Of a DNA stretch of 64,000 nucleotides, positions 23,854-53,572 are shown piece by piece. This DNA comes from Chryseobacterium phocaeense. Its GTDB lineage: Bacteria > Bacteroidota > Bacteroidia > Flavobacteriales > Weeksellaceae. The notes under the pieces are model-generated. The model made no database searches and was not told where the DNA came from. It was given only the letters and a program-made list of their open reading frames with translations. A program made the translations under genes and the position numbers. The stretch covers positions 3,240,158 to 3,304,157 of the forward strand of contig NZ_LT827015.1 in the NCBI RefSeq assembly GCF_900169075.1, in the 5' to 3' direction. Each line of letters opens with the position of its first letter. Positions within the stretch are counted from its first letter, which is position 1.

Positions 23854-23924
23854 AGACCCATGGTGTAGCGGTAACACTACTGATTTTGGTTCAGTCATCT
23901 GGGGTTCGAATCCCTATGGGTCTA
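23854..23924 (+). tRNA. tRNA-Gln (anticodon TTG), copy 1, island integration target
   Basis: 71 nt. Acceptor stem AGACCCA / TGGGTCT with discriminator A; anticodon stem ACTGA/TCAGT enclosing TTTTGGT with anticodon TTG; T-loop TTCGAAT. It differs from copy 2 (58965) only at 23916, where it has A instead of G. CCA is not encoded. The 3' end is the attachment site of the island, and the base at 23916 is probably island-derived, because the displaced host end at 53555 has G like copy 2. Confidence 0.96.
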
Positions 23925-23928
23925 CAAA
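23911..23928 (+). other. Left attachment site of the island (within tRNA-Gln)
   Basis: TCCCTATGGGTCTACAAA. It matches 53555-53572 at 17 of 18 positions. The match starts in the T stem and extends four bases past the tRNA. Confidence 0.82.
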
Positions 23929-23968
23929 AGTCTTGTTAATCATTTGATTTTCAAGGCTTTTTTATTTT
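23927..23968 (+). terminator. Island-supplied terminator after tRNA-Gln
   Basis: Stem AAAGTCTTG / CAAGGCTTT (one G-T pair) around a 16-nt loop, then TTTATTTTT. It replaces the host terminator displaced to 53570. Confidence 0.7.
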
Positions 23969-24023
23969 TCTAGTCAACACATAGTCAATAAGTTTATTTT
24001 TGAGATGATTTTAATAAATTCAA

Positions 24024-24070
24024 AATTTACATTACAGTCTTTTTAAGAATTTGCTTATCTTGGTCACAAC
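24024..24070 (+). repeat. Possible fossil CRISPR repeat beyond the degenerate end
   Basis: TTGCTTATCTTGGTCACAAC (24051-24070) keeps TTATCTT and GTCACA of the repeat with about 7 bases deleted between. It ends in TCACAAC exactly like the degenerate repeat at 24101-24147, and exactly 30 bases, one spacer length, separate the two. Confidence 0.4.
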
Positions 24071-24100
24071 AAAACATTAGATGACAGAACTTGACGCATT

Positions 24101-27100
24101 ATTTTGAATTGCTTTCAAAGATTATTATCTTAGTGATCAATCACAACTGCTCTGTCCACCTGTAACGAGTGCATGGCGTTGTGAATTGCTTTCAAAAATT
24201 ATTATCTTAGTAATCAGTCACAGCAGCAGTACAGCTATTTCGTTGAGTATTTAAGTTGTGAATTGCTTTCAAAAATTATTATCTTAGTGATCAGTCACAG
24301 CGTGTCGTTAAAATCCCAGTCTATATAGGGCGTTGTGAATTGCTTTCAAAAATTATTATCTTAGTGATCAGTCACAGCTATCAGCTGGAAAGATGAATAA
24401 AAGAGGTGGTTGTGAATTGCTTTCAAAAATTATTATCTTAGTGATCAGTCACAGCTTTTTACCTTGTTTTGTGACGTTATAATTAGTTGTGAATTGCTTT
24501 CAAAAATTATTATCTTAGTGATCAGTCACAGCTAACCAACTGTGTAGTTGTGAAATCTCCTAGTTGTGAATTGCTTTCAAAAATTATTATCTTAGTGATC
24601 AGTCACAGCTTTATTAATAGACATATGTCAATTAGTTTTGTTGTGAATTGCTTTCAAAAATTATTATCTTAGTGATCAGTCACAGCAAACCGGAAAATTA
24701 GATGAAGATGACGACTGTTGTGAATTGCTTTCAAAAATTATTATCTTAGTGATCAGTCACAGCATAAAATGAAATTTAATATCGGCGACTTAGGTTGTGA
24801 ATTGCTTTCAAAAATTATTATCTTAGTGATCAGTCACAGCGAATAGTCTCCTCGGAATTTTAATCGTTCTGTTGTGAATTGCTTTCAAAAATTATTATCT
24901 TAGTGATCAGTCACAGCTATTTACATCTATACTGTTTACTGTATTGTGTTGTGAATTGCTTTCAAAAATTATTATCTTAGTGATCAGTCACAGCACTTTG
25001 TTTTAGTCTCAATTGCCAACATGGGTTGTGAATTGCTTTCAAAAATTATTATCTTAGTGATCAGTCACAGCTGTTTTTCCTGAGTACAAAGACAAATTAG
25101 TGTTGTGAATTGCTTTCAAAAATTATTATCTTAGTGATCAGTCACAGCAAGATTAATTGTCATCTGGCCGTCCAGAGAGTTGTGAATTGCTTTCAAAAAT
25201 TATTATCTTAGTGATCAGTCACAGCAAAGCGGAAACCCGGACCGCAATCTTCCGGGTTGTGAATTGCTTTCAAAAATTATTATCTTAGTGATCAGTCACA
25301 GCTTTTAGTTTCATATTCCTTCATCGCTTCATGTTGTGAATTGCTTTCAAAAATTATTATCTTAGTGATCAGTCACAGCTCCCCCATAGAATTATATGGC
25401 AAGATTGGGGTTGTGAATTGCTTTCAAAAATTATTATCTTAGTGATCAGTCACAGCACGGCCTCGGCGTTTGAATCTTGCCATAACGTTGTGAATTGCTT
25501 TCAAAAATTATTATCTTAGTGATCAGTCACAGCCTTGCCATATAATTCTATGGGGGACAAAGAGTTGTGAATTGCTTTCAAAAATTATTATCTTAGTGAT
25601 CAGTCACAGCTAATCATGTTGCCAAGCTCTATTTCTGAGTGTTGTGAATTGCTTTCAAAAATTATTATCTTAGTGATCAGTCACAGCCTACATGGGATAT
25701 ATCTGTGGAGGACTTACGTTGTGAATTGCTTTCAAAAATTATTATCTTAGTGATCAGTCACAGCTTTCTAAAACACGTCTTGCGGACGGATCTGGTTGTG
25801 AATTGCTTTCAAAAATTATTATCTTAGTGATCAGTCACAGCCACAAAGGGAAACATGGAAACCTTCATTCCGTTGTGAATTGCTTTCAAAAATTATTATC
25901 TTAGTGATCAGTCACAGCGAACTGGAATTATCCCTATTACTGGAAACTGTTGTGAATTGCTTTCAAAAATTATTATCTTAGTGATCAGTCACAGCTGACG
26001 ACTGAGCCAGGTCTTACCACCAATAGTTGTGAATTGCTTTCAAAAATTATTATCTTAGTGATCAGTCACAGCACAATGAAAGCCCATTTATAGGGTTTCA
26101 TTGTTGTGAATTGCTTTCAAAAATTATTATCTTAGTGATCAGTCACAGCTTAATGTAAGTTGTGGTATTCTCACATGTCGTTGTGAATTGCTTTCAAAAA
26201 TTATTATCTTAGTGATCAGTCACAGCTTAAAATTTTTCTAATGCTTGTTCTTTTGTGTTGTGAATTGCTTTCAAAAATTATTATCTTAGTGATCAGTCAC
26301 AGCCCATACATCTGCAGTACGGTAAAGCCTTTAGTTGTGAATTGCTTTCAAAAATTATTATCTTAGTGATCAGTCACAGCTTTTGAGAATAAATATTGCT
26401 TTCAGGAAACGTTGTGAATTGCTTTCAAAAATTATTATCTTAGTGATCAGTCACAGCACATCCCCAGGAGGGGTAGGATCTCCAAACGTTGTGAATTGCT
26501 TTCAAAAATTATTATCTTAGTGATCAGTCACAGCCTAACTTTCCGCCGTATGTATCTACTTTGGGTTGTGAATTGCTTTCAAAAATTATTATCTTAGTGA
26601 TCAGTCACAGCTTATGGGTAGCATGGAGTATAGCAGCGTTAGTTGTGAATTGCTTTCAAAAATTATTATCTTAGTGATCAGTCACAGCTTAATGTATTTA
26701 GATTCCGGTTCTCCTGCTGTTGTGAATTGCTTTCAAAAATTATTATCTTAGTGATCAGTCACAGCCTGATCCCCCGGCGTCCTCTCCTGCACCTTGTTGT
26801 GAATTGCTTTCAAAAATTATTATCTTAGTGATCAGTCACAGCTTACTTCCCATTCAGGTAGTATGTTTTCTAGTTGTGAATTGCTTTCAAAAATTATTAT
26901 CTTAGTGATCAGTCACAGCATTCGAGCTGCTTATTAGCAGGCTACGATGGTTGTGAATTGCTTTCAAAAATTATTATCTTAGTGATCAGTCACAGCTGGA
27001 ATCTATCGCTGTACTCCTCTGATACTGTTGTGAATTGCTTTCAAAAATTATTATCTTAGTGATCAGTCACAGCAATGGTACAGTAGTTGTTTTAGTAGAT

Positions 27101-30100
27101 GTTGTTGTGAATTGCTTTCAAAAATTATTATCTTAGTGATCAGTCACAGCTCCAGATCTACTAATTCATCTGTATCTCTAGTTGTGAATTGCTTTCAAAA
27201 ATTATTATCTTAGTGATCAGTCACAGCTAAGGAAAAAAGCTGCCAAAACTTCTATTAGTTGTGAATTGCTTTCAAAAATTATTATCTTAGTGATCAGTCA
27301 CAGCTAATAGGAATACCGTGGAACGCCAATTTATGTTGTGAATTGCTTTCAAAAATTATTATCTTAGTGATCAGTCACAGCGTTCTTTTTGCTTGTTTGC
27401 CCTTTCGATGTGTTGTGAATTGCTTTCAAAAATTATTATCTTAGTGATCAGTCACAGCTTGGAAACGATTGAATGGTACATTAAGCATGTTGTGAATTGC
27501 TTTCAAAAATTATTATCTTAGTGATCAGTCACAGCCATTCGTCCAGTTATCAATCGGCGTAATTAGTTGTGAATTGCTTTCAAAAATTATTATCTTAGTG
27601 ATCAGTCACAGCCATGCGATTATGCTCAAACTAATCAGTATCGTTGTGAATTGCTTTCAAAAATTATTATCTTAGTGATCAGTCACAGCCGTCTTCGGCT
27701 CGCTTTCCCATAAACATCGGTTGTGAATTGCTTTCAAAAATTATTATCTTAGTGATCAGTCACAGCGCGAAGGAAGAAGCACAGCTTCAATTCGACGTTG
27801 TGAATTGCTTTCAAAAATTATTATCTTAGTGATCAGTCACAGCATGGAAGACGCACAGGATAAGCGAACCGCCGTTGTGAATTGCTTTCAAAAATTATTA
27901 TCTTAGTGATCAGTCACAGCAGAAATTCAGATCAGAAGGAACGGAAAATGGTTGTGAATTGCTTTCAAAAATTATTATCTTAGTGATCAGTCACAGCAAT
28001 AATTTCTTCGGATTGCAGCCGTACACGGTTGTGAATTGCTTTCAAAAATTATTATCTTAGTGATCAGTCACAGCTTTTTTTAAGTTTTTCAGCGATGTCC
28101 ATTGGTTGTGAATTGCTTTCAAAAATTATTATCTTAGTGATCAGTCACAGCCATCCCATAACCCATTAACATATCGTGAAAGTTGTGAATTGCTTTCAAA
28201 AATTATTATCTTAGTGATCAGTCACAGCTTGGATTACTGTCAGATGCTCTTCGAGATAGTTGTGAATTGCTTTCAAAAATTATTATCTTAGTGATCAGTC
28301 ACAGCTTGAAATGCCAGTAGATAAGCCCGCCCCGGGTTGTGAATTGCTTTCAAAAATTATTATCTTAGTGATCAGTCACAGCAATGTTGACATTATGCCA
28401 AACCATCATATTGTTGTGAATTGCTTTCAAAAATTATTATCTTAGTGATCAGTCACAGCATGGTTTTTTATTTTATCATGGGAAAGATTGTTGTGAATTG
28501 CTTTCAAAAATTATTATCTTAGTGATCAGTCACAGCAATATTGGCACGTCTACAGTGTCGCAAATTGTTGTGAATTGCTTTCAAAAATTATTATCTTAGT
28601 GATCAGTCACAGCTGCCTGTCCAGATATATCGCTCTCCATGCTGTTGTGAATTGCTTTCAAAAATTATTATCTTAGTGATCAGTCACAGCTTTCAGCACA
28701 AAACCATTTAAAAAGGGTGTGTTGTGAATTGCTTTCAAAAATTATTATCTTAGTGATCAGTCACAGCTTACATTAGCGAGTGTCTGAGCTTGTTCCAGTT
28801 GTGAATTGCTTTCAAAAATTATTATCTTAGTGATCAGTCACAGCACCCTGTACGCTTCTACGTAATCCTCCTGCGTTGTGAATTGCTTTCAAAAATTATT
28901 ATCTTAGTGATCAGTCACAGCTGATGGCGTTGCGGATTGGTATGAGTGCGTGTTGTGAATTGCTTTCAAAAATTATTATCTTAGTGATCAGTCACAGCCG
29001 AAATAACCCGCATTGGAAGTACACTACCGTTGTGAATTGCTTTCAAAAATTATTATCTTAGTGATCAGTCACAGCATAGCTTGTATTGTCTTGCTTATCA
29101 AAATGGTTGTGAATTGCTTTCAAAAATTATTATCTTAGTGATCAGTCACAGCAGAATTTTCTGATAAATACCCGGAAACAGCGTTGTGAATTGCTTTCAA
29201 AAATTATTATCTTAGTGATCAGTCACAGCCGATGTGGTCTACAAATATGAGCGATGCCTGTTGTGAATTGCTTTCAAAAATTATTATCTTAGTGATCAGT
29301 CACAGCAATGAATATCAATAGGTATATGAATTTTGTGTTGTGAATTGCTTTCAAAAATTATTATCTTAGTGATCAGTCACAGCAGTGGCTGAAGGTTTAT
29401 ATGCCGAAAGGGAGTTGTGAATTGCTTTCAAAAATTATTATCTTAGTGATCAGTCACAGCTTATTTCAGATATGAAAAATATATAAATCTGTTGTGAATT
29501 GCTTTCAAAAATTATTATCTTAGTGATCAGTCACAGCGCTTCTTTTTCGGTTCCCGGATGCGTTCCAGTTGTGAATTGCTTTCAAAAATTATTATCTTAG
29601 TGATCAGTCACAGCTCACAAACCTTGCACCAGCATTCATTCTATGTTGTGAATTGCTTTCAAAAATTATTATCTTAGTGATCAGTCACAGCTTGAACTTC
29701 TGTTTATAGGTATACTTTCACGTTGTGAATTGCTTTCAAAAATTATTATCTTAGTGATCAGTCACAGCTGAAGCTTAAATTTCGTGACGTAAAATTGTGT
29801 TGTGAATTGCTTTCAAAAATTATTATCTTAGTGATCAGTCACAGCTTTTCATAAAAATTAACGGTCAAAATATTAGTTGTGAATTGCTTTCAAAAATTAT
29901 TATCTTAGTGATCAGTCACAGCTTGAGGTTAAAAAGCTGCAAAATGAAGAATGTTGTGAATTGCTTTCAAAAATTATTATCTTAGTGATCAGTCACAGCA
30001 TTGATTGTTTTCGGGTGTGCTGGAATTCAGTTGTGAATTGCTTTCAAAAATTATTATCTTAGTGATCAGTCACAGCATCGCCATAATTCTTTGATACGCT

Positions 30101-30153
30101 TCTTTGGTTGTGAATTGCTTTCAAAAATTATTATCTTAGTGATCAGTCACAGC
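24101..30153 (+). CRISPR. Type II-C CRISPR array, 79 repeats (47 bp) and 78 spacers (30 bp)
   Basis: The repeat starts GTTGTGAATTGCTTTCAAAA and ends TTAGTGATCAGTCACAGC (47 bp). With a 77-bp period, 24101 + 78 x 77 = 30107 is exactly the start of the last repeat, so all spacers are 30 bp. The first repeat (24101) has five mismatches, the second (24178) one (TTAGTAATC); the others read as identical. Plus is the crRNA-sense strand: the tracrRNA anti-repeat pairs with the 5' half, and a terminator follows the last repeat. The degenerate, oldest end is therefore at the transcription-upstream side, as known for type II-C. Each repeat holds TTG-N21-TATCTTAG, a near-consensus promoter. Confidence 0.98.
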
Positions 30154-30163
30154 CTCAAAACAC

Positions 30164-30210: not shown

Positions 30211-31435
<1,225 letters not shown>

Positions 31436-31439
<4 letters not shown>

Positions 31440-34400
31440 TTATTATGTTTTGAGATATTACCAAGACGATCTATTCTCAGCTTAATACAATTCTCTTTAA
31501 TCATTGATCCGTCGATTGCACGTTCCATTTTATTTAAAGTTGAGAATTCTAACTTGTTAGCAATAGATGTGGCAACATCTTGTCTAATAAAAAATATTTG
31601 ACTTCCTGAAAAACTGACTACTTTATAAATGTTCTTTTGCTTCTCTTTTACTAAATTCTTAAAATCGATATTATGCATATTTTCAAACTCATCTTCCGAA
31701 GGAATATAGACCAAATCATTTGGAGAAAGTAAAAAATCTTCTTTATTCTTAAATGAAACAGGAGCCAACCCTTGCTTTTGCCTTTCAATGACTTCATTCA
31801 GAGGTATGGTTTCATAGCTTCTTTTTCCTCTATCATCTGTATATACAGCAAAAAAAAGATTTGTCCCTTTGGCTGCTTCTACGTATTTAGCCTTTTTATT
31901 TCCTGTTTGGCCTACAGGAAATTTGCTTCCCAATTCAAAAACCCTAACTTTATTAATGGGCTGATGTGGTTTGCCATCATTAAATTTTTCAATGTTCTTA
32001 TTCAGATCTTCAATTCCTTCCGGCGAGAATGCTACTTCAGAGCTCCCTTTAAATTCTAAATAATTCTTTAGAATCTTTTGAATTCCGGTATCTGTAATTG
32101 AATTGATTGTTTTCACATCAAATGAAGTATCCAAACTCCTTCTTGTTGCTGTTAATATTTTTCCTTTGGGAACTTTAACCCAAGGTAAATATACCTTTCC
32201 CGAAACAGTTTCTTTATGCATGGGCTTTCGTACTGCCCAATTTATTCCTTCCTGTTTTATTAATTCTTTTGTTTTTCTTCCCTCTCTTTCAACCCATTTT
32301 TCGTAATAATTAGTAGCTTTATTAATCACTCTTAAGTTCTGTTTAAAACTGATAATTATGGCCTCTAATTTATTTTTAGCATCAACAGTAAAATTATCCC
32401 AAGGTTTCCAAAACTGCTTAGGAACTTCTTTCTCCGTTTTTTTGCCAGTTTGAGGATGATTATAAATTACTTTTTCAAACTTCATCAGCTTTCTTTTTAA
32501 ATCATATCTTTTTATATCAGATTTAGCTGATTGGTTATTAAGGAGATTAATATGATCTTTGGTTGCACATGCAATTATCAAAGCATCCATGGCATGATGA
32601 CGATGGTCTATTCTTTTCTTAGAGAAACCTTTTGAAAGCTCAATAGGAACAGTAGGTAAGAATTTCTGGTGGCTTTCATTCCACGCTGTAAAATTATTGG
32701 AATTAGTCAATTGATTCATCCTTTCAAAACGAGGAAGTATTAATTCGTTCCATATATCATTCAAACCCCAATCTTGTTTCAGTTGTGTTGTAATCTTTCC
32801 ATTTCCTGGAATAATATTTTTAGAATTTACACTCTCATCAGTTCCATCTTCTACCCGAACAATATTGGAAAGTACGCCTGAAATATATTTACTGATATGT
32901 CGTGTATCATTTAATTGACGCTCAATCATTTTTTCAGGAATTTCCTCTAAAAGAAGCTTGGTTCTTTTACTCCGGTTTTTAGCATAATGCTTCTTTACAA
33001 AATCTTCATAAGCTTCCACTTCAAATACCCTCACAGTTTTTCCAAAGCCACATTCTACAGTAACTCCATGAAATTGTTTTATAAAACCTAGTCCGATATA
33101 GTTATCTTTTAATTTATTAACTGCAGATTCGCAGATAATTTTATTGTTAAAGCTATCATCGAAATAACGACTTTGGGGGATAATATGCTCAATTTCATAT
33201 TCCGTTGTAAATAATTTATTCAATGGAATAATTTCTCCAGTGTAGGGCGAACGATATTTTTGCTCGAGCCAAAGCTTATACCTTTTTAAATCTGACGAAG
33301 ATGGCTGTGCTGTTTTACTTATCTTTAAATACTCATCTTCAATTTCAATTTCAGAATTTAAAACTCCTTCCTCATAAATTTTAAGGATTTCCTGTTGCAT
33401 TGGTGAAAAAGGACGAACATTTTCCACATCACTATCATTCATCATTTCGGCTAACAAAGCTTTGATACGAAGATTGGTACTTTCATTTTCCGTAACTATG
33501 TTAGTCAATCTTTTACGTTCTTCCGCGGTATTTTTCATTTCCCTGCCTAATTCAATATGAATCTCACTGAAGAAGTCTTTTGTTCCATTCCCATATTTAA
33601 CCCAAATATCTTTTACAACACGAAGGGTCTCTATAATTACCTGCTCTACAATTGGATTACGAAGTGAATGTTGTTTGAATCCTTTTAAAAATTCTTCCAA
33701 ATCATCTGCAGAATTCCATTTTCCTAAAACAGAAGCTTCTGAATGATGACCGTAAACTACATATTGGGCCAGCCATAGTGGCAAACCCTGAAAATGATTT
33801 TCTTGTGTAAGATGTAATGCCTTTTCTCTGACCTTATCTTTAATATTTTCATCAAATTCACCTGTAATTATTTTCTCAATTCTTTTCTGAGATTCTCCAG
33901 CAATACTTTCCCAATTCCAATATTTTCCTAAACGCATCAAGGGCAAGAGTTTCTTGATGGCTTTTTCTGAAAAAGAACCATATTCACTTTTAAAAGGAGG
34001 AAACTTTTTAAAAGATTCAAAAAATGATGTTCCATCCAAGTTCTTCTTACGAGCAAATGATTTTAATGCTTTTTCATATTCTGTTTTATCATTGACAGAA
34101 TAGATCATGTGCCAAATACTCTGTTCTATTTCTCTTGTCATAAAATCGACCGGACAATTTTCGACCTTTTCCAACCTCGTTGAAATCATTGTTCTAGTTT
34201 CATTGCAGGGATATTTTTTGTCTTCTACATAATTCCATCGATGTGTTTTTTCATTTAACTTAAAATGTTTCAGCAATGCTTTCTGATCAACTTCCTTCCT
34301 GTTATTTAAAAAACTAAACAGAACTTCATAGTCTTTGGTATTACTCAGAAACTCTTGTGTAACATTCGTATCATCATCTTTTTTGTAAATGTTCAAATTA

Positions 34401-35837: not shown

Positions 35838-35918
35838 ATAATTTTGAAAAGCAATTCACAATAAGGATTATACCGTTGTGAAAACATTTAGCGCCTCGAC
35901 TATCTTCGGGGCATTTTT
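35838..35918 (+). ncRNA. tracrRNA
   Basis: Trans-activating RNA that pairs with the crRNA repeat and is bound by Cas9. Positions 35836-35861 are the reverse complement of repeat bases 2-27 apart from a shifted A/T, giving a bulged duplex; the core AAAAGCAATTCACAA is clear. A short nexus-like region (AAGGATTATACC) follows, then a terminator hairpin GCCTCGA / TCGGGGC with loop CTATCT and TTTTT. It is transcribed on the same strand as the array and divergently from cas9, 97 bp from the cas9 start. Confidence 0.88.
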
Positions 35919-36000
35919 CATATAACTTCATCTTCTATTACTTCCTTAAGATAAGAGTTTTTCAGGAATTCTAAAACTTCTAAAGTATCTATACTATTTT

Positions 36001-38241: not shown

Positions 38242-38264
38242 AATTTCATTTCCTTGTAAAGACA

Positions 38265-38751: not shown

Positions 38752-38761
38752 GAGAGAAAAT

Positions 38762-40490: not shown

Positions 40491-40856
40491 CTATTTTTGT
40501 GAAGAGTTTGTTTTATTTTTTAAAACTAAATAACATTTTTCATTTAGAGGATTAATTAATTTTTTTCTTTTTAAAATAAATTTTTTTTCCTCTACATAAG
40601 CAATACTATCACTTCCTTTCAATGAACTCTGATATTGGGAACTCAAAAATAAAGTGTCCTTTTTAATCATCCAAATTCCTGACAACCTCTCGATAGAACT
40701 CGGATAGGTTAATACAAATACATTATTTTTTTTTAGTGATAAGATATTACTTGGTGCATCCGTAGAATAACATATATTCTCATATTTTCCTAATTTTAAC
40801 TGTGAACTACAATTAACTAGGAAAATGCACAATAATATAAAAATTAGTTTTCTCAT
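40491..40856 (-). CDS. Small lipoprotein, candidate immunity protein of the RHS toxin
   Basis: A 121-aa lipoprotein: signal peptide MRKLIFILLCIFLVNC with lipobox VNC at Cys16. The remainder is beta-rich (GIWMIKKDTLFLSSQYQ; KKFILKRKK), reminiscent of small lipocalin-like folds. Its ATG overlaps the stop of the RHS gene (40853-40856), so production is coupled to the toxin. A cognate small membrane or periplasmic protein directly after an RHS/polymorphic toxin is usually its immunity protein; here that is inferred from position only. Confidence 0.6.
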   Translation of the reverse strand: MRKLIFILLCIFLVNCSSQLKLGKYENICYSTDAPSNILSLKKNNVFVLTYPSSIERLSGIWMIKKDTLFLSSQYQSSLKGSDSIAYVEEKKFILKRKKLINPLNEKCYLVLKNKTNSSQK

Positions 40857-43800: not shown

Positions 43801-44449
43801 GATTTTTAAATTCTATTCTAATATTTCCATCTTCATCTGTGGTGATATTTTTATATAATTGTTGAGCTATAAAAAATCCGTTTGATGAATTTGTCACAGC
43901 TACTTTCAAAATAGAGCTGGTTCTGTTTTCTACCCATGTAGTTGTGGTAAAGTACTTTCTGACTTCTCCATCTGTATTTGTATCATAATCGAATTTTACA
44001 GGTTTTGAAGACCAATCATTTCCAACATTGATCTGCTGAAGCATTTTGTCTAGTGGAGAACTTTCTAACCTTTTCTCGGAATAAATCTTTTCCGATCCAT
44101 ATATATCGGATTGTGTTGCGTTACTCAAAGGATTAGAATAAAGCTCTCCGTCTTGCGTCAGCGACTGTGGTACCGGAAGGTAAAATTTCACCTGCCTTCC
44201 GAACTCATCATATTCTAAATGATTAACTACATCTCTTCCTAAAGGGGATGCTTTTACATTAACCACTTGTTTCGGTCTTCCCAAACCATCAAAATACTGA
44301 ACCGTATTAATTTGTTTAGCGGTTGTACTTGTAGCGGTTACAGGTTCAAGATAACTTCTTGATTGTATATAATTTTCTGTTGCTGTTTGCCCATAACTTT
44401 GTACAATAACAGAGAGTAAAATGAGCGTACTTAATAATTTTTTCATCAT
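40853..44449 (-). CDS. DUF6443 RHS-repeat protein with C-terminal HExxH metallopeptidase-like toxin domain
   Basis: A 1198-aa exported protein. Signal peptide MMKKLLSTLILLSVIVQSYG; DUF6443 (LGRPKQVVNVKASPLGRDVV, residues about 55-75); many YD repeats; and the RHS core end YGARFYMPDLGRWGVVDNKA near residue 930, followed by YHYAGNNPIMYFDIDGNE. After the core the sequence changes to a ~250-aa variable tip with AHELKHGYQF near residue 1090, an HExxH zinc motif, and DEVVGYQ about 30 residues on as possible third ligand. This is the layout of polymorphic toxins with a peptidase warhead. It is third of a four-gene operon, four bases after the previous stop. Confidence 0.85.
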   Translation of the reverse strand: MMKKLLSTLILLSVIVQSYGQTATENYIQSRSYLEPVTATSTTAKQINTVQYFDGLGRPKQVVNVKASPLGRDVVNHLEYDEFGRQVKFYLPVPQSLTQDGELYSNPLSNATQSDIYGSEKIYSEKRLESSPLDKMLQQINVGNDWSSKPVKFDYDTNTDGEVRKYFTTTTWVENRTSSILKVAVTNSSNGFFIAQQLYKNITTDEDGNIRIEFKNLEGQTLLSRNVLSQTENADTYYVYNEQNQIAFVIPPKASDMIKSLSPGTVVPDAVLNELCYQYRYDKRLRLVERKLPNKGLESFVYDRQDRLVATQDANLREKGQWQYSKYDQFGRIAIVGINTGGSRIAEQEIADGLAFNNVNRLSTALFERQGMPVYYGNPDNTYPNSSKWVTLLSLNYYDSYPPYSFNPTFPTSVLGQLSSTDSPTADVSTNNLPVMSFIKNLEDDNWTKNYNYYDKKGRGIGTYSINHLGGYTKTESKLDFTGVAQTMVTKHKRLDADTERVITENFTYDHQNRLLVHKHKVDSNPEEILVQNTYNELSQISNKKLGGITASATLQSIDYKYNIRGWMSQINDPANLNGKLFGYTLRYTDPVYSTIAPGRYNGSIAEIDWNVSTLNNLKRYNYTYDKLNRLTDAEYAEPETTNPHNKNYDERLTYDVNGNIASLKRNAVPVSGTTATTVDNLTYQYTGNRLDKVTESALNDTGYEGGNNTIDYDLNGNMINMKDKGIQSIVYNYLNLPDSFSIILPDPFMLGQPSSATLTYLYRADGTKLRKNYYKQGRRGASGSTHITDYLDGFQYSYLEGGGICLTCKTDNAFEEQAYTNVAKTFPDIDLTPQWKLDFVPTAEGFYSFTENRYIYQYRDHLGNARVSFAKNSEGLLEVTDKNDYYPFGLNHIQGIFEGANLGSYYSYKYNGKELQETGMYDYGARFYMPDLGRWGVVDNKAEKYFSLSPYHYAGNNPIMYFDIDGNEFTEDAWIWVNRLIADINSRQAKNNVKITDFESKIAAGGKAGQIKRWKSNIADLKANNADLESVRGETATMAASNQIYDVIENDDLSDSSFKTGAFGFNYNNGKAYMVLPKNSGLAMFAHELKHGYQFETGESGSVTRDQDEKGVAFLHDKTDEVVGYQRGKLFGQNDSYSTGSLPDAYKNLPTGPINTTNHPEISRAMKLPPAQRKVALQNIANQGKAFRVEGQTYYKK

Positions 44450-44452
44450 TAA

Positions 44453-47400
44453 TTAATTTATAGAGAAGGTAAAGTCAAAAACCATATTCATGTCGTTAAC
44501 CAGAGAGGGAGATGCAGAACTGATCTTAGCCGTGATATTTCCGTTAGGATCAATTGTTAACAACCAAACTCCATTAGCAAAAGTACTACTGGAACGCTGC
44601 CCTGAAGGTATACAGTTTCCACTAATCTTTCCTACTACAACTCCTGTGCTCCAAGGAAGATTACTAAAATATCTGAATCCCATCTGCACTCTGAACTCAT
44701 TTGTATTATTTAGAAAAATTGATCCATAATGAAATTGGTTGATCCCGCTTCCCTTAGTTACAGAGCAATTCATCGTAGTACAGGTACCATACAGATTTGC
44801 AGCTGCTTGCCCGTTGCTATTAACATCATTTTGAGCCTGTTGATTTGCATCATCCTGATTGATAATCGAGGTATACTGACCCTCTGGTACAATATAGGTA
44901 TAGTTACCACCTATAGCATTGGGACCACAATTATTACGTGTAAAAGTCCCACTCTTTATTGAACTATAATGCTTGGTTGGTGTAAAATTGTATTTATTAT
45001 CTTTGAGGATATTACCTTCTTTATCTAATACCCTTATAAGCCTGTTGGATGCATCATACTTATAGAATTCTCTGAAGCCAGATGGGGAAGTGATTGTTTT
45101 AACTCCAATTAAAGGGTCATAAGTATACACGGTAATTTTGAAATCTTTAAACTCCACCCTCTTTCTAAAATTATCTAATTCAGCAATTAGACTAGATTCA
45201 GTAGATTCATCTGTATCCAGATCTGATTTTTTAACGATATTTAATTGCAGGTATGAATTGTTATCATTAGTATCTAATCCAAAAGCCTGCATAACCTGTG
45301 AATAAGTTCCTCCTTCTATTTTTGCAATTGGATGGGTTTGCTTATATCCCCAGATAACTGTAACTGGTGACCCTTCTTTGGTAGTATACTGCAAGATTTT
45401 GCCCTTTGAGTTATATTTATCAAAAGTTCCGTCTACAGGGGTGTTTATATTTGGATCATTTAAATTATATGTAGTTACTGAAGTGGGATTGAAATGAGTT
45501 AGATTATCAAATTTAATTGAACGGTTAAGAATTTGGACCCCATTCTTAAACATACTGGTTCCTGTATTGTCGGATAAAATATTAGCCTGAAGAAATCTAC
45601 TCATTGAACTGGATTGCCCGGCGGATTCACTAATTAAATCTGAATCAGGTGTCAGAGTCTCTGTCTTCCATAACAAATTGTAATTATTATAAATATAATC
45701 TACTTTTGTTAAAAGTAATTTATTATTTAAATAATCTTTTGTTTGCGTTTTTTTCAACAAGGATTGTTTTGAAAAAACAGGATAAAAGCTGAATGCTGTG
45801 ACTGGATTATCTACAAGATCAGGCTGATAAACCCCGTTGTTATTACATGAACTCGCTATTACACAGGCATTTGTGTATGCAGTGCTGTAATAAATATTAA
45901 GTGATGAGCCATAGAATAAGCTGGAAAGTGAATTTGAATATTCATTCTCAATTTCTCTAACTAAGGTATCATTAGAATCAAATAACTTTATTCTGTTTAC
46001 TAGTCCATTCTCTGGATTATCCTTAGATTTAATTTTAGGGAAATATACTGGCACTTTATCATCTTTGAATTGATATTCAGTTTCAGGATTATTATAATAA
46101 TAGGTTACTGTTTTCCCCTTAGAAGTGTTATTATTATCCACCTCCTTCTTCGTTACAGAAGAATAAGCAACCATATTTCCTGCTGAAAGTGGAGACGAAG
46201 TATTATCTGAAACGGCAAGAAGGGAAAGGGTTGTAAAATTGTATGTAGTAAAACTATTATAACTACCGTTCACTCCGGAAATAAGCCTTGTGGTTGTTTT
46301 CTTAAAAAGATCCAATGGGTTATGAGATTTACCGCCCTCATATTCAAATATAGTTTGCGTTAATATATTATCGTTAGAGTCATAATTTATTTGTTTCTTT
46401 AATCGTATGCCATTACCATTAGTAATTGCTGACGGATACTCATTAACAAAGAGATTGTCGGCACTATTAAGCTCGTAATCAAACTTTGCATATCCTGTAG
46501 TTGGATATGTTATTTTTTCCAAAATCCCCGCTTTTGCAAACTCCAGATTAGCTTTTCTTTCATTATTATTTTTATCATTTAAAGGGACATTTGTTCCTCC
46601 GTTCAGCGTAAAATTAAAGTCCAGAGGATTTGGAAAAAGGGTTTTGTTTTCCAGATTTCCATTAAAATACCCCCAATAGTCAACGGCAAAGGAGTCTTTT
46701 TCCGGAAGTAACACAGCATTATATTTAAAAGAATAGTGATCAACATCATTTATTACAATGGCATTGAGTTTTAATCTTTTGTTAAAACGATTAACATCGG
46801 TAATGGGAAAAGCGGTCGCCGGAATATTTAAATTCCCGGCTTCGGAACGTACAGTTTTAGTATTCTGCGCCGTAAAATATGAGTAATTAAAATCAATCTT
46901 TTGGGCTATTTGAGCTATATTATTTTTAACTACTATTTTATCAAGCTTGCTATTTTTTGACCAGTCTTCCCTTTCGGAATATTCAAAACTTACCGTACCA
47001 AAATCCCCGCTAATATCTTGTACCAGCAAAACGTTTTTTGTATAATATCCCAAGTGAAAACCTACTGGAATTAAGTATTCTCCAACAGTTTGTGAAGTCA
47101 AATAGGGTACGCTTGAATAATTCGGTCCGTTAAACGAGCCATTGTATTCCCCTCCGTATCCATTTGTCGGTTTACAAGCACCACTATAGTAAGTATTGGC
47201 AGGAAAGAGGCTGTCATTGTGTGTATAGTAATTAGAAGCTAATGAGAGATTCATGTGCTGTGCATAAGCCGGTATTGAACCCGGTTCTAAGCTCTCCTTA
47301 TAATTAATAGTAACTGTCCTATTATTTTTATCGATGATTTTAGTCACAACATAATTTCTTCCCTGTACATTTGACATAGTGGTTGTTCCATTAGAATTTA

Positions 47401-48193
47401 TTGAAGCAACTCCAAATTCTTCAGCTTTACTGAAGTAGTATCTAATCCCTGCAGGGCTTGTAATAATAAATAAATCAGATGTATTATACTCTATTTTATA
47501 TCCTCTTTTATTAATGCTTTCAAATGTAGGAGCGAAACTCAAATTCGGATAGAGATTGGTCTTAAAATTCTTAGTTATGAATTCTATTTTCTCTCCAAAT
47601 AAATTGCATATAAAAATATCGGGGGCAGTATCATACTCGGTGAGTCCATGGTTATAATTTTTAAAATATCCTCCAATAGGAAGCATTGCTTTCATTGACT
47701 TATAATAAGTATATTTATCATACCCCAATTGATTAAGATACTGAGAAGGGATAGCCGAATTTTCACAAGCTTCAAAATTATTTCTTGTAAAGGGCGGAGT
47801 ACTGTCATATAAAAAATCTAATTTTAATTTATTGTACTCACTGAAGTCATCAAACCCTCCGGAAACATACTGTGTTATTGTTGCCATTGGAATTCCCCAA
47901 CCTAATCCTACATGGGAAGCTTCATCACGAACTTTGATACCATTGCCTGAAATATAATTTAGATTTAAAGGAATGTTAATGTCTCCTTCCTCCACGTTAT
48001 ACAATGGAATAGAAGGTGAATTTGCTCCGATATATTCTGAGTTTTGTATTTCACCATAACGTTGAAAAGTCTGAGTTGAAGGAGTTTTAGGAAAATCATT
48101 AAAATAGTAGGCTCTATTTTTATCTGCTTGAGCGTATAATTTAACAAACGATAAAATTAAGGTTGTTATAAATGTAATCTTTCTTTTCATCAT
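44453..48193 (-). CDS. DUF5977 / YD-repeat-like large exported protein
   Basis: A 1246-aa protein with signal peptide (MMKRKITFITTLILSFVKLY, then AQ). The N-terminal block SPSIPLYNVEEGDINIPLNL, then HVGLGWGIP, is typical of flavobacterial RHS-associated/SpvB-like surface proteins. YD-like segments follow (FREFYKYDASNRLIRVLDKE). Near residues 1065-1130 DUF5977 is visible (QDDANQQAQNDVNSNGQAAA, ANLYGTC). There is no T9SS C-terminal domain. It lies between the T9SS protein and the DUF6443 RHS protein with four-base gaps on both sides; a joint role in building or exporting the toxin shell is inference. Confidence 0.75.
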   Translation of the reverse strand: MMKRKITFITTLILSFVKLYAQADKNRAYYFNDFPKTPSTQTFQRYGEIQNSEYIGANSPSIPLYNVEEGDINIPLNLNYISGNGIKVRDEASHVGLGWGIPMATITQYVSGGFDDFSEYNKLKLDFLYDSTPPFTRNNFEACENSAIPSQYLNQLGYDKYTYYKSMKAMLPIGGYFKNYNHGLTEYDTAPDIFICNLFGEKIEFITKNFKTNLYPNLSFAPTFESINKRGYKIEYNTSDLFIITSPAGIRYYFSKAEEFGVASINSNGTTTMSNVQGRNYVVTKIIDKNNRTVTINYKESLEPGSIPAYAQHMNLSLASNYYTHNDSLFPANTYYSGACKPTNGYGGEYNGSFNGPNYSSVPYLTSQTVGEYLIPVGFHLGYYTKNVLLVQDISGDFGTVSFEYSEREDWSKNSKLDKIVVKNNIAQIAQKIDFNYSYFTAQNTKTVRSEAGNLNIPATAFPITDVNRFNKRLKLNAIVINDVDHYSFKYNAVLLPEKDSFAVDYWGYFNGNLENKTLFPNPLDFNFTLNGGTNVPLNDKNNNERKANLEFAKAGILEKITYPTTGYAKFDYELNSADNLFVNEYPSAITNGNGIRLKKQINYDSNDNILTQTIFEYEGGKSHNPLDLFKKTTTRLISGVNGSYNSFTTYNFTTLSLLAVSDNTSSPLSAGNMVAYSSVTKKEVDNNNTSKGKTVTYYYNNPETEYQFKDDKVPVYFPKIKSKDNPENGLVNRIKLFDSNDTLVREIENEYSNSLSSLFYGSSLNIYYSTAYTNACVIASSCNNNGVYQPDLVDNPVTAFSFYPVFSKQSLLKKTQTKDYLNNKLLLTKVDYIYNNYNLLWKTETLTPDSDLISESAGQSSSMSRFLQANILSDNTGTSMFKNGVQILNRSIKFDNLTHFNPTSVTTYNLNDPNINTPVDGTFDKYNSKGKILQYTTKEGSPVTVIWGYKQTHPIAKIEGGTYSQVMQAFGLDTNDNNSYLQLNIVKKSDLDTDESTESSLIAELDNFRKRVEFKDFKITVYTYDPLIGVKTITSPSGFREFYKYDASNRLIRVLDKEGNILKDNKYNFTPTKHYSSIKSGTFTRNNCGPNAIGGNYTYIVPEGQYTSIINQDDANQQAQNDVNSNGQAAANLYGTCTTMNCSVTKGSGINQFHYGSIFLNNTNEFRVQMGFRYFSNLPWSTGVVVGKISGNCIPSGQRSSSTFANGVWLLTIDPNGNITAKISSASPSLVNDMNMVFDFTFSIN

Positions 48194-48196
48194 AAT

Positions 48197-49771
48197 TTAT
48201 TTCTTAATTAATTTTGCAGTTGCCGTTTTATTTGTATCCGTCTTTATCGTCACCAGATAAGCCCCCTGAACTAAATTCTGGCTATTTATCTTCGTCACCT
48301 TATTCTTAGTCTTCAAGCTCTGAAGCTGCCTTCCGCCCATGTCGTATAATAGAATATCAGCTTCCTTGAATTCAAAGCCGATTTCTACATAAGCAAAATC
48401 TGAAACCGGGTTTGGATAGATTTTTATGTCTTGTTTTTCAATCAGCTTATTAATCTGGCTGTCTCCAAGTTTCACAATCTTCCAGTTTTCCTTTCCTAAT
48501 TCTTCTGCGCTGGTTCCGGCCAGAATAATAGATCCATCCCGGTTCAGCTTAATATCTGAAAGCCTCTCTTCTCTTTTTCTGGATTCTCCTTTTACATGTT
48601 TTCTCCACTTCTCATTACCATCCTTATCTAAATACAGCATCCAGAAGGTTTCATCCTCTGCTTCAATCCTTCCTTCTGCCTGAGTGTAGCCACCTAACAA
48701 AACTCCTTTTGAAGTTTTATCATCTGCGGAATGCAGAACACTTGCTCCCATCAGAATATCTCTGTTTCCGAAATTGTAAGATTTTTGCCAGATTTCTTCA
48801 CCTCTTTCGTTCAATGAAATTAGCCACAGGTCTGTTCCTTCTTCTATTCCTATGGTTTTATTCCCTGATCGTTCCGACCTGGATTCGCCACCGATTAAAA
48901 ATCCGTTGGATGTTAAGGCTAATGTTCTTAGATGGTCATCTCCTTTTCCTCCGAAGTTCTTTTCCCATTCTACCTTATTATCCTTTGAAATCTTGATGAC
49001 CCAAAAATCCCCTTCACCATAGTTGTCTGTTTTCTTTGATCCGCCCAGGCCACTTCTGGAGTACATCCCAACCAAAACACCTCCATCCTTAGAAGGAATC
49101 ATTTTCTCTACCTCATCTAATCCCTTTCCTCCTAAAATAAGTTGAGAAAGCTCCTTTGCATCTTTATCCAGTTTAATAATCAGGGCATCTTTAGATCCGT
49201 AGCCTTTAGTAGAGCCCTGAACATTTCCTGCTACAAAGAATCCCATGTCTGTAGTCTGTACTACGGCACGGGCTTCCTCAGAAGAAGAGCTTCCCAAGGT
49301 TTTCTGCCATAATTCATCCCCAAATTCATTTAGTCTGATGAGCCAAATATCTGATCCTCCCTTGGAATCTTCCTTTTTATCCAGACCTTTTCCTGAATAT
49401 GAAGTTCCTGCAAGAAGATTTCCTCCATCCTGAGTGTTTACGGAGGCAGACAGATAGTCATGGTTATTTCCTGAGAAATATTTTTCCCAGACATCTTCTC
49501 CCTGCTGGTTAAGCTTCACGAGGTGGAAGTCATAACCACAATTTTGTTTCTTGGCTCCTGAGCCTGTAGAAGGAGAAGTTGTAGCAGAGCTGCTACGTGA
49601 TTGGATGCTGCTTCCCGTAATTAAATACTGACCATCTATGGTTGTTGTGACCTGGCTTAGGAAATCCTGAGTGCCGGATTTAATATCCCGTTGCCATGCT
49701 ACCTCTGTTTCCTGGGCTGATACTCCCAGAAATGCACACAAGACCAGTGCACCTAAGTAATTTTTTTTCAT
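48197..49771 (-). CDS. T9SS type A sorting domain protein, first gene of the RHS operon
   Basis: A 524-aa secreted protein. Signal peptide MKKNYLGALVLCAFLGVSA, then QE. The middle consists of ~50-residue propeller-like repeats (GGSDIWLIRLNEFGDELWQK, GEGDFWVIKISKDNKVEWEK, EGTDLWLISLNERGEEIWQK). The C-terminal 80 residues form a type A sorting signal (DIKIYPNPVSDFAYVEIGFE ... GAYLVTIKTDTNKTATAKLI KK), directing export by the type IX system and anchoring or release at the surface. It starts the operon that continues with the DUF5977 and RHS genes. Confidence 0.88.
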   Translation of the reverse strand: MKKNYLGALVLCAFLGVSAQETEVAWQRDIKSGTQDFLSQVTTTIDGQYLITGSSIQSRSSSATTSPSTGSGAKKQNCGYDFHLVKLNQQGEDVWEKYFSGNNHDYLSASVNTQDGGNLLAGTSYSGKGLDKKEDSKGGSDIWLIRLNEFGDELWQKTLGSSSSEEARAVVQTTDMGFFVAGNVQGSTKGYGSKDALIIKLDKDAKELSQLILGGKGLDEVEKMIPSKDGGVLVGMYSRSGLGGSKKTDNYGEGDFWVIKISKDNKVEWEKNFGGKGDDHLRTLALTSNGFLIGGESRSERSGNKTIGIEEGTDLWLISLNERGEEIWQKSYNFGNRDILMGASVLHSADDKTSKGVLLGGYTQAEGRIEAEDETFWMLYLDKDGNEKWRKHVKGESRKREERLSDIKLNRDGSIILAGTSAEELGKENWKIVKLGDSQINKLIEKQDIKIYPNPVSDFAYVEIGFEFKEADILLYDMGGRQLQSLKTKNKVTKINSQNLVQGAYLVTIKTDTNKTATAKLIKK

Positions 49772-50201: not shown

Positions 50202-50351
50202 TTGTTTCGTTAAAATTATTGTTGCGAAGATAAAAATATTTTTGAAACTGAATTATTAAATTCACAGAAAGAAGAAATATATTTTAAAGCAGCCTTCTAC
50301 TTTATGAACAATCCCTTTATTGTCTTGTAATAATAATTCACTATTAAATTA

Positions 50352-51518
50352 TTATTTAATCCTTTTTTTCTCAGTAAAAAAACTCTTGCATAATAAAAGT
50401 TTTGAAAAATCCATATCCCATAGTGGCTCATTTTTATTAATTACAATCAGTGTTTCATCATTGAGATCAAAAGGTTCTACAAAGCAATAATAAAGTAATC
50501 GCCCTACAATTGCTTTAATAATCTTACCCTTATTATTCAATTCACAATATAGATAGCAGGGAGTATTTTTTCTATTGATATTAAATTGAAAGAGGATATG
50601 TTCTTTCACTATTCTTTTTTTTCCAGAGAAAGACCATCCACTTAGTCGTTTCACTCTTCCTTTATTAGATATTACATATTGGTCTTCAAAACCTATTATA
50701 GGGATTGGCTTCCAATATTCACCGGGAAGATTCTCTACAGATAGGTTCATACATGGCGGTGGATTGTTTTTATTAATCCTGGGTCTCCCAAGGTTTTTCC
50801 AGAGTGCTTCATTAAACAACTTTCCAGATGTAGCTTTTATTCCATTTATCAGAAACTCTTCCTTACTTGGTGGATCGCTTTGCAAAAACCACCGAAATGC
50901 TCCGGCTGTTAAAAATATTTTATTGATTACATTTATAATTCTTTCGCAGGAAATGCCAAGTTCTTTTTCGGCAGCATAAATACTATCAAATTGATTGATT
51001 AGTACACCTTCTAAATTATATTGGCTAACAGGTTGCAGATATATGACGTGTATATTTTTAGCCCTGTTTGAATGATACATTCTAAGGCTTTCTTCTTTTA
51101 CTGAAATTTTCTCCAGATTATTACAATGCATATGAAGTCTATTATTATCCTTGGGTATAATAACGACAGTACGATCTTCCAAATCAAATTCTTCAATAAA
51201 ATGATAATACACAATACGGCCTAAAGACTTTGTATGAGCTTTACCGTTTCGTGAAAGTTTACATTGTAAATTATAAGTATAGCTTTGGAGATAATTATTG
51301 AAATTTTTAGAGAAAAGTGGTTGTAAAATCAATTCTTCCAACATGTATCTGTACCCCAGAGGAGATTGAAACCAACGCTTACATCTTTTTACCCGCCCAT
51401 AGTTCGAGATTTCATAATTCTCAAAACCTTCAATAGGTTTCCACTCTTCATCAGGAAGGTTTTTAAGTGATTTATTATAAAGCACATTCTTTAAATATTG
51501 ATCTTCCAGTTCATTCAT
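50352..51518 (-). CDS. Tandem NUMOD4 protein with degenerate HNH-like segments
   Basis: A 388-aa protein made of two similar halves. Each opens with a NUMOD4 block (EWKPIEGFENYEISNYGRVK and YWKPIPIIGFEDQYVISNKG), a DNA-binding module of homing endonucleases, followed by a segment where HNH nucleases would have their catalytic His (VVIIPKDNNRLHMHCNNLE; TLIVINKNEPLWDMDF), but the NHxD-type His is not seen. Between them ENLYGV..FDSIYAAEKELGIS-type sequence resembles NUMOD1. It may be a DNA-binding protein rather than a nuclease. ATG 51516-51518 is used; the upstream TTG at 51545 is less likely. Confidence 0.7.
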   Translation of the reverse strand: MNELEDQYLKNVLYNKSLKNLPDEEWKPIEGFENYEISNYGRVKRCKRWFQSPLGYRYMLEELILQPLFSKNFNNYLQSYTYNLQCKLSRNGKAHTKSLGRIVYYHFIEEFDLEDRTVVIIPKDNNRLHMHCNNLEKISVKEESLRMYHSNRAKNIHVIYLQPVSQYNLEGVLINQFDSIYAAEKELGISCERIINVINKIFLTAGAFRWFLQSDPPSKEEFLINGIKATSGKLFNEALWKNLGRPRINKNNPPPCMNLSVENLPGEYWKPIPIIGFEDQYVISNKGRVKRLSGWSFSGKKRIVKEHILFQFNINRKNTPCYLYCELNNKGKIIKAIVGRLLYYCFVEPFDLNDETLIVINKNEPLWDMDFSKLLLCKSFFTEKKRIK

Positions 51519-52029
51519 AAATTGAAGATTTCTTTTTGTATACAAATTATATAATATTTATATGGAATATTGGACGTAAGTAATTGACAAAATATAATGA
51601 TTTTGAGAATATTTAAAAGTGTTCAAATATAAATTTAATGCTCTATAAGCTTTCTCACATGCAAACAGATAGCGAGATACGCTAGATATGCATAAATTCA
51701 GCAACTGATTCTATTAATTATATTTTCAAAAATTCTGGAATAGGAAAACAGGTAAGATTGTAATTACGTAGTCCCTATTTTTAAAGTAAATTCATTGATT
51801 CTTTTTACCTATAATGGTTTGAAGTGCCTTTTATTACTACAGAAATCTAATACAGTTCTTTTAAAGCTCTTGTGTTCACCTTGTGTGTCTGTGTGAACCG
51901 CATTTTTATTATTCACATAAATATTTATTGACTCTAAAAATACGGTGTAATTAAAATATTAGCAGAAAAATCTAAATTTTCCTGTTCAAAATTCCAAATG
52001 TATTTATAGGATTATCTTATCGATCATCA
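51519..52029. other. Intergenic region between NUMOD4 gene and integrase
   Basis: 511 bp, AT-rich. No frame on either strand looks coding. It contains a short CTTGTGTTCACC...GTGTGAACCGC stretch that looks like repeat debris. Nothing else was recognised. Confidence 0.6.
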
Positions 52030-53355
52030 TTAATTCACATTTTTGATCGCTAGATCGTCTTTGTTTTCATTATGATCTAATTGCTGCCAATAGGAATACA
52101 TCTGCTCTGAAAGGGTACTGTTATCAATTCCGATATATCCTAAAAATTCAGTTTCGGTCTTGTGGCCTGTAACACTCATGATAATAGCAGTAGGAATCTT
52201 ACTATAATACATGGTTGCGAAGGTTCTTCTACAAATATGTGATGAGATTAAATCGTGGAGAGGATAGCTTCCAAAGACATAGTGTTTTTCAACCTCATCA
52301 TATACTCTTCCATATTCAGCGCGATCTATAGCTGCCAGCTTAGATATTTTTTTCAGATTCTCATTAAAAATAGTCTTTGCACTCTCCAGATTTGTTGAAA
52401 ACTGTGCTGGAAAAGATCCCTTCCTTTTGTCAAGGATTTTCTTTACTTCCACATGAATAGGAACCAAGACAGGAGTTTTGGTTTTCTTTTGGCTTAAATT
52501 GATGAATTCTTTGCCATTGATCGAGACAATTTTTTCAGGGGTCATTCTAAACAAATCCGATGCTCTTTGCCCGGTATAACAACCAATAATCAGCCAGTCA
52601 CGCGTTTGTTCCAGCTTTTCATTGACTATTAATAATTCTTGTATTCTTTGCAGTTCTTCCGGCTTTAAATACGGAGTGGGAGTATCAACAGTAAATCCTT
52701 TTATTTCGCTCAACTGGTCATGGACCTCAATATTATCTATTTTGGCATCTTTGAAAATTGTCTTGGTATATTTCAAATACTTCCCAACTGTATTATCACT
52801 CAGATGCTGCCCCCGAAGAAAGATAACAAACCTGTTTCCAGCAGAAATATTATAATCTGAAACTTTAAGCCTAGTTTTTTCTGTCTTTAAAAATTCCTGG
52901 AACTTATCAACAATCGTTAAATGCTTTTGTCTGGTTCCTTTTGTAATTGGCTTTCCCTTATATTTTCTAAAGGGCAAAATATCAGTCTTATAATGTTCCA
53001 AATAGTTTTCTATAAAATCAAGCTTTTCAATTTTGCGCCCTCCGGAATAGTAAGCATCAATAATTTCAGCCAACCATTCTCCACCTATAATTTCAGTTTC
53101 ATTTCTTTTCCTATACTGTTCTAAAATAAATGATTCCAGTTTTGTTAAGGTATTGATCTGTTCAGTTTGATTCTGTAGTGCCTCTCTGGTTAACGCCGTC
53201 CTCTGCACTACCATGCCTTTTTTAGCATTCCAGTTTTCTGGATTCACTGTTTCGCGGGTTTTTCGTTTATAAACCTGATTGCTGCCTATCGAAAAGCGGA
53301 CATAGATTACTGCACTTTGTTTCTTTGACTGAATAATAAATTTTACCGTAGCCAT
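52030..53355 (-). CDS. Tyrosine-type site-specific recombinase (island integrase)
   Basis: A 441-aa integrase. The N-terminal Arm-binding region (VIYVRFSIGSNQVYKRKTRE) and SAM-like core-binding domain (KFQEFLKTEKTRLKVSDYN) precede the catalytic domain: R264 (YTGQRASDLF), H373-x-x-R376 (SSHICRRTFAT), H398 (VTGHKTETEF) and Y407 (LGYIGID). All key residues are present, so it should be active. It ends the element interior, with its start 200 bp from the right att copy, the usual position of an integrase beside its attachment site. Confidence 0.93.
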   Translation of the reverse strand: MATVKFIIQSKKQSAVIYVRFSIGSNQVYKRKTRETVNPENWNAKKGMVVQRTALTREALQNQTEQINTLTKLESFILEQYRKRNETEIIGGEWLAEIIDAYYSGGRKIEKLDFIENYLEHYKTDILPFRKYKGKPITKGTRQKHLTIVDKFQEFLKTEKTRLKVSDYNISAGNRFVIFLRGQHLSDNTVGKYLKYTKTIFKDAKIDNIEVHDQLSEIKGFTVDTPTPYLKPEELQRIQELLIVNEKLEQTRDWLIIGCYTGQRASDLFRMTPEKIVSINGKEFINLSQKKTKTPVLVPIHVEVKKILDKRKGSFPAQFSTNLESAKTIFNENLKKISKLAAIDRAEYGRVYDEVEKHYVFGSYPLHDLISSHICRRTFATMYYSKIPTAIIMSVTGHKTETEFLGYIGIDNSTLSEQMYSYWQQLDHNENKDDLAIKNVN

Positions 53356-53554
53356 AATCTCTACTTAAATCTTTTAGAAAACAAATTTAGTCAATTTTTA
53401 GACAATAATATGCTTTTTTACCTTAAATACATCTTACTTTATTTAACTACGTAAAGAATAAAAAAAACAAATTAAATACTGAATAACAATAATTTAAATA
53501 TTTAAACACTATAAATTAAAATAAAATGAATTTAAATTGATTAAGGAATTACAC

Positions 53555-53572
53555 TCCCTGTGGGTCTACAAA
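53555..53572 (+). other. Right attachment site: displaced tRNA-Gln 3' end
   Basis: TCCCTGTGGGTCTACAAA, differing from 23911-23928 only by G for A at the sixth base, where the intact copy 2 tRNA-Gln also has G. Directly followed by an orphan terminator. Confidence 0.82.

Follow-up and report, generated by a model that had tools for sequence, protein, structure and literature searches.

CRISPR (clustered regularly interspaced short palindromic repeats)-Cas9 systems have been described on islands at transfer RNA (tRNA) genes. Vibrio natriegens CCUG 16373 and Salinivibrio carry type II-B islands of this sort, and the V. natriegens island is absent from another strain (PMC6360697). Of the type I-F and III islands presented in the same paper, the authors write that systems which came with the island and systems added to it afterwards cannot be distinguished. 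In Campylobacter, CampyICE1 is an integrative element of 70-129 kb at a tRNA-Met gene, which bears a type II-C Cas9, up to three arrays and conjugation genes but no cas1 or cas2 (PMC8743540). Here we describe a 29.6-kb island in a 64,000-nucleotide stretch of Chryseobacterium phocaeense (assembly GCF_900169075.1, contig NZ_LT827015.1, positions 3,240,158 to 3,304,157; hereafter the window). Its complete type II-C CRISPR-Cas9 system is very probably carried by a site-specific integrative element, one of a Chryseobacterium family, at the 3' end of tRNA-Gln.

Like the V. natriegens and Salinivibrio islands, the window island combines a complete cas locus and an array in an integrase-bearing tRNA region. 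Those islands differ from it in being type II-B with cas4 (cas9-cas1-cas2-cas4), in belonging to Gammaproteobacteria and, in V. natriegens, in lying at tRNA-Met (PMC6360697). With CampyICE1 it shares a type II-C Cas9 and a tRNA gene as the place of integration, but at 29.6 kb it has no recognised transfer genes, carries both cas1 and cas2 and has a 78-spacer array. Since the type II-B tRNA islands and CampyICE1 are already published, CRISPR-Cas9 on a tRNA island is not new as a kind. An earlier model-made reading of the window, without database searches (the sequence-only reading), had called this location unusual; the word holds within the genus, where 21 of 25 cas9 contexts lie at or near one chromosomal home region, and not beyond it (PMC6360697 and PMC8743540). 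No precedent from Chryseobacterium, Flavobacteria or Bacteroidetes was apparent, by title or abstract opening, in the literature searches made. Also close are the chromosomal type II-C loci of Chryseobacterium and Riemerella anatipestifer, which like the window's have cas9-cas1-cas2, 30-nt spacers and a trans-activating CRISPR RNA (tracrRNA) upstream of cas9 (PMC6008519); those of Chryseobacterium lie at tex-typA and not on an element. The window Cas9 matches CbCas9 (PDB 8iyq and others) over its full length with 2410 bits. CbCas9 acts together with PcrIIC1, a member of the PIN-domain superfamily (PMC13153721), whereas no PIN domain was found in the 15 island open reading frames (ORFs) scanned with Pfam.

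The borders of the island are defined by a tRNA-derived repeat. In the 4.86-Mb genome, the 17-mer TCCCTRTGGGTCTACAA from the tRNA-Gln 3' end occurs exactly twice, at the two proposed borders, and the reversed control gave 0 occurrences in the same whole-genome search; the near-duplicate 29.6 kb apart reported by the sequence-only reading was thus located at both ends as the sole such pair. The left attachment (att) site, attL (18 bp, TCCCTATGGGTCTACAAA, core TCCCTATGGGTCTAC; 23911..23928, + strand), overlaps the end of a tRNA-Gln(TTG) gene (23854..23925, +; ARAGORN), the presumed integration target, whose 3' end would have been rebuilt by the element. The right site, attR (53555..53572, +), is a copy of TCCCTATGGGTCTACAAA with one mismatch and is probably what was the tRNA-Gln 3' end before integration, now displaced. 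A second tRNA-Gln gene lies nearby in the window at 58965-59036 (ARAGORN), and the closeness of two such genes might suggest that the repeat arose by chance or by similarity within the tRNA family and that the CRISPR locus is plainly chromosomal. We give this almost no credence. The only further site in the window within 3 mismatches of TCCCTATGGGTCTACAAA is the second tRNA-Gln, at 59022, and a native-type terminator stands displaced by 29.6 kb; the genome-unique 17-mer pair, together with empty sites in two relatives (G022 and G017), rules a chance repeat out.

Two terminators accompany the borders. A hairpin with a T run just inside attL (23926..23969, +) would be the replacement tRNA terminator brought by the element, and comparable hairpins were found at three other att flanks, in island B of C. 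defluvii (G008), in G127 and in C. lathyri (G050), in the last of which the attL-type att and the integrase lie on separate contigs. The hairpin outside attR (53570..53598, +) is now an orphan. tRNA-Gln adjoins menE in all 30 genomes examined, and because a hairpin of the same AACCA(T/C) type stands directly 3' of the menE-side tRNA-Gln in 21 of them, the one outside attR is the native tRNA-Gln terminator; the nine remaining sites include those of the window, C. lathyri and C. defluvii and six with other hairpins. Both terminators had been assigned these roles in the sequence-only reading, and both assignments stand. Its argument from the single base that separates the att copies fared less well. 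The base does differ, but the A at attL is found only in the window's genome, the other printed tRNA-Gln and tRNA-Gln-type att copies having G, so that a mutation after integration would account for the "incoming base" equally well. As the tRNA-Gln bodies of G022 and G017 also differ from that of the window, the single base alone is not proof of incoming sequence.

The contiguous junction predicted for an unoccupied site was found in both genomes whose DUF5686 is closest to the window's, G022 and G017. In each, menE, tRNA-Gln, a AAACCATCC hairpin and DUF5686 follow each other with no gene between, and the window flanks, joined in a script, align to G022 through the junction (905 of 1,060 columns).

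The integrase is a complete tyrosine recombinase of 441 aa (52030..53355, -; Pfam) whose start codon lies 199 bp from attR, in agreement with the roughly 200 bp first proposed. Its R, K, H..R, H and Y positions, which we take to be catalytic, are conserved across 10 aligned integrases. In a survey of 173 genomes of the genus, an integrase of at least 75% identity was present in seven, including the window's, and one further genome had one at 54%. The integrase-side border of these seven carriers is a tRNA-Gln 3' end in five (the window, C. lathyri, C. defluvii, C. sp. MYb7 (G044) and G127) and another site in two, G072 and C. limigenitum (G129), where the border is TCCTTTCAGGATGAC and no tRNA was found. 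In G127 the element occupies another tRNA-Gln (element at about 742 kb, menE at about 916 kb), and a distant element in G022 sits at the 3' end of the transfer-messenger RNA (tmRNA). The genes beginning at 36001, 37198, 38317, 38762 and 39173, the RHS cassette, the gene at 48197 and the integrase recur, with their order kept, in the elements of G072, G129 and G127, which have no cas gene. Since the backbone exists without CRISPR in these three genomes, the CRISPR locus is cargo. In one of these CRISPR-free siblings, that of G127, two genes without a family fill the cargo slot at attL (L148:17474-18929).

The cargo itself was confirmed as the complete type II-C system with adaptation genes and a 78-spacer array that had been read from the sequence. 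The array (24101..30153, +) consists of 79 repeats of 47 nt and 78 unique 30-nt spacers. It is followed by cas2 (30211..30549, -; PF09827, TIGR01573), a type II cas1 (30546..31439, -; PF01867, and TIGR03639 above cut-off) and cas9 (31436..35740, -; 1434 aa, TIGR01865). The Cas9 protein contains LGLDLGTNS, EIHIELGRE, YEIEHIIPQS and HHAMDA, its RuvC and HNH catalytic motifs. A predicted tracrRNA region (35846..35919, +) comprises the anti-repeat GAAAAGCAATTCACAATAAGG and a terminator hairpin, and all 25 cas9 contexts have an anti-repeat with at most 2 mismatches upstream of the gene. Neither cas4 nor csn2 nor any further cas gene was detected among the 15 island ORFs in the Pfam scan. The att-proximal first repeat is degenerate, which marks the old end, so growth of the array is expected at the cas2 end; in the type II-C locus of R. 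anatipestifer new spacers enter at that end (PMC6008519).

The island reading is further supported in C. defluvii, where the same CRISPR-bearing island lies at the same tRNA. Beside arfB-menE this genome has, in order, tRNA-Gln, a 52-kb island, an internal att copy, a 23.7-kb CRISPR island, attR and a terminator; beyond attR the next gene is one other than DUF5686. The 52-kb island, stacked between the tRNA-Gln and the CRISPR island (C1, about 294200-346076), brings a separate integrase-like gene (27% identity). The C. defluvii CRISPR island has the window's gene order (attL, paired repeats, array, cas genes, backbone, RHS cassette, integrase), with identities of 95% for cas2, 92% for cas1, 87% for cas9 and 83% for the integrase, and a pattern count gives 17 repeats in its array. 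This shared order, from attL through the repeats, array and cas genes to the backbone, bears on the idea that a CRISPR-free island came first and that CRISPR-Cas was added by chromosomal recombination and does not travel with the integrase. CRISPR-free sibling elements do exist, and a similar module of RHS and Por-tail genes stands beside cas9 without a window-type integrase in G107 (L083/L084) and G131 (L069/L070), as such a composite would allow; against it, the CRISPR locus lies wholly within the att pair in the window and the order is repeated in C. defluvii, and we consider a composite origin improbable.

The same chromosomal site and gene order in the two genomes would also fit a single old event, in which the CRISPR-bearing element entered tRNA-Gln once in an ancestor shared with C. 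defluvii, was inherited vertically, was precisely lost several times and is now a relic. At fourfold-degenerate sites, the window's genome and C. defluvii are 51.3% identical for 9 island genes (890 sites) and 47.4% for 16 core genes (1,661 sites). The island genes are thus as diverged as core genes and the two CRISPR islands are old relatives, so an old insertion with several losses is conceivable, and a recent transfer between the two genomes is unsupported. The integrase of C. lathyri, a member of the same species clade, is 95% identical to that of the window, which would also be expected of an old resident. On the other hand, one gain needs about five losses on the species tree, with the native terminator restored behind the tRNA, and sibling elements are found elsewhere: at another tRNA-Gln in G127, at other sites in G072 and G129 and, for the distant G022 element, at tmRNA. 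We rate descent from one old insertion as a serious alternative but on the doubtful side. Together with the fourfold-site comparison, several observations weigh against an integrative element as the present carrier of the CRISPR-Cas9 system. No relaxase or conjugation genes were recognised on the island in Pfam, TIGR and PHROG scans, in which the genes at 36001, 37198, 38317 and 39173 have no family; the G127 integrase is broken; the backbone genes of the window resemble their counterparts in G072 and G129 about as closely as those in C. defluvii; the attL of C. lathyri and its integrase lie on different contigs, so that their link is only putative; and the Cas9 proteins of the window and C. 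defluvii do not form a pair of their own in the best tree, although such a pair is not rejected (approximately unbiased (AU) test, p = 0.073), so that a single capture is unproven.

An integrative element as carrier of the CRISPR-Cas9 system is further illuminated by where related loci lie. Cas9 of at least 74% identity was present in 27 of 148 genomes, and the contexts compared are those of the window and 24 others (G049 and G089 were left out), two of the 25 ending at contig edges. tex and/or typA lies near cas9 in 21 contexts (typA alone in 2, tex alone in 2, tex 8-17 kb off in 3), the exceptions being the window's genome (G000), C. defluvii, G102 and G107. The genomes of the window and C. 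defluvii have one Cas9 match each, their tex-typA regions are present without any cas gene or repeat, and they are the only two among the 25 contexts with an integrase of the survey type near cas9. A cas9 at this tRNA without an integrase, which the sequence-only reading had named as evidence against itself, did not occur among these contexts. In the genus examined, the same CRISPR-Cas type thus sits mostly at the tex-typA home region and, in two genomes, on an element, with the home region cas-free there. This within-genus contrast between home region and element is clean and unusually clear, and it allows tests of how CRISPR-Cas loci change address, of whether carrying immunity benefits an element and of whether immune memory is passed on horizontally. 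In 9 further genomes of the family (8 from other genera with an excisionase relative of at least 38%, and G044), only weak Cas9 matches were found, in 2 of the 9. In G127 the immediate neighbour of tex is a distant Cas9 (about 30% identity; C1:4529602-4534251), so the home region also hosts another Cas9 lineage. G034 has cas9-cas1-cas2 at the home region (L063/L064), and the repeat of the usual pattern was not found there in 38 kb.

The phylogenies of Cas9 and of the host disagree. In a species tree built from two genes close to the site, the window's genome groups with G022, which is without such a cas9; in the Cas9 tree it groups with C. defluvii and G034, the latter with cas9 at the home region. 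Constraining the window Cas9 with those of G012, G017, G070, G141 and G048 was rejected (AU test, p = 0.004; G048 is in the constraint but outside the species tree), and adding G067 to the constraint gave p ~1e-100. Most likely the element took its CRISPR locus from a copy of the tex-typA home-region kind, and we infer the direction from chromosome to element. That the element family took up the whole immune locus, array included, from the home site into its cargo slot, and that immune memory moves between species as cargo, is a conceivable reading that we advance tentatively and hold to be somewhat short of probable.

In the mechanism that we propose, the tyrosine recombinase would insert the element at the tRNA-Gln 3' end; the element would restore the terminal 15-18 bases of the tRNA and bring its own terminator, with the native one displaced to the far end. 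The family backbone would consist of the integrase, an excisionase-like helix-turn-helix (HTH) protein and four conserved genes of unassigned function, and a cargo slot adjoining attL would be filled, in the window and C. defluvii, by the type II-C locus (cas9, cas1, cas2, tracrRNA and array). Paired repeats at both ends are putative arm-type integrase sites. The left pair, TAGTCAAC/TAGTCAAT, lies 11 bp apart at +60/+71 from the att start (23971..23989, +), and TAGTCAAY pairs occur at the same offsets of 60 and 71 in island B of C. defluvii and in G127; in this att-aligned comparison no such left pair was found inside the attL of C. lathyri. The right pair, TAGTCAAT/TAGACAAT, also 11 bp apart (53388..53406, +), adjoins the integrase start, as does a like pair in C. 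defluvii. The HTH protein and the paired repeats may act in excision, and the integrase may excise the element today. Together, the integrase, the putative xis, the att sites, the paired repeats and the empty sites make a workable test case. A second, distant element of like kind is present in the window's genome (G000:C4:2855720-2858518), with an integrase 35% and an excisionase-like protein 43% identical.

The remaining island genes lie on the minus strand. The first backbone gene (36001..36585, 194 aa, no family) has relatives of 43-77% in C. defluvii, G072, G129, G127 and the G022 tmRNA element. Two others without a family, of 355 aa (37198..38265) and 152 aa (38317..38775), are conserved in the relatives' elements; searches of Pfam, PHROG and PDB gave the 355-aa protein no relative above cut-off and lent no support to the relaxase or replication role considered for it. 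The putative Xis (38762..39076; HTH_17) matches PHROG 66, "excisionase and transcriptional regulator", at 3.7e-12 and falls slightly below the TIGR01764 cut-off. The fourth gene without a family (39173..40060, 295 aa) is 61-74% identical in G127 and G129 and 80% over 89 aa in G072, with pieces of 32-36% only in C. defluvii. Single-sequence structure models of two backbone proteins were poor (mean pLDDT, the predicted local distance difference test score, 42 and 46). The variable cassette encodes an RHS-repeat protein (DUF6443; 40853..44449; 43-56% in other elements) and a large DUF5977 protein (44453..48193; domain search). A protein with a Por secretion C-terminal sorting tail (48197..49771) is 66-80% identical in other elements. 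By domain search and relatives, a NUMOD4/HNH homing-endonuclease-like protein (50352..51545) was recognised, with an 84% relative beside the C. lathyri integrase and relatives of 48-50% in G072 and G044.

A scan of viral contigs with 8 patterns, covering 9 of the 78 spacers, gave a match for one pattern and none for seven. The matched spacer, 29, is identical at 30/30 positions, and its neighbour, spacer 28, was found afterwards on the same phage contig at 29/30; a head maturation protease and a primase-like protein are among the products of this contig. These two of 78 suggest that the spacers derive from mobile DNA. Spacers 17 and 19 (array within window 24148-30106) have 24 nt in common on opposite strands and are probably two acquisitions from one target; this 24-nt site had no exact match in the viral contigs. 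Against the 167 loci of this comparison, the array itself aside, the longest spacer match was 19 nt, so there is no sign in them of one element targeting another. The array gave no convincing match to plasmids. Its matches to named phages were weak, once pieces resembling the repeat in Riemerella phages are set aside; the best were those of spacer 20 with a capsid gene of Microviridae (E 0.5) and of spacer 39 with Flavobacterium phage 11b (E 6).

One of the Riemerella phages, RAP44 (HQ396194.1, 1501-1613), carries a mini-CRISPR, as read in the RAP44 sequence, of one spacer and one full repeat near-identical to the window's, followed by a similar terminator. Twelve phage records, two of them of RAP44, contain its spacer with 29-30 of 30 bases matching, and in a further record, named GDF21, a tape-measure gene matches it at 27/30. 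The mini-CRISPR could possibly act as an RNA anti-CRISPR or in targeting between phages.

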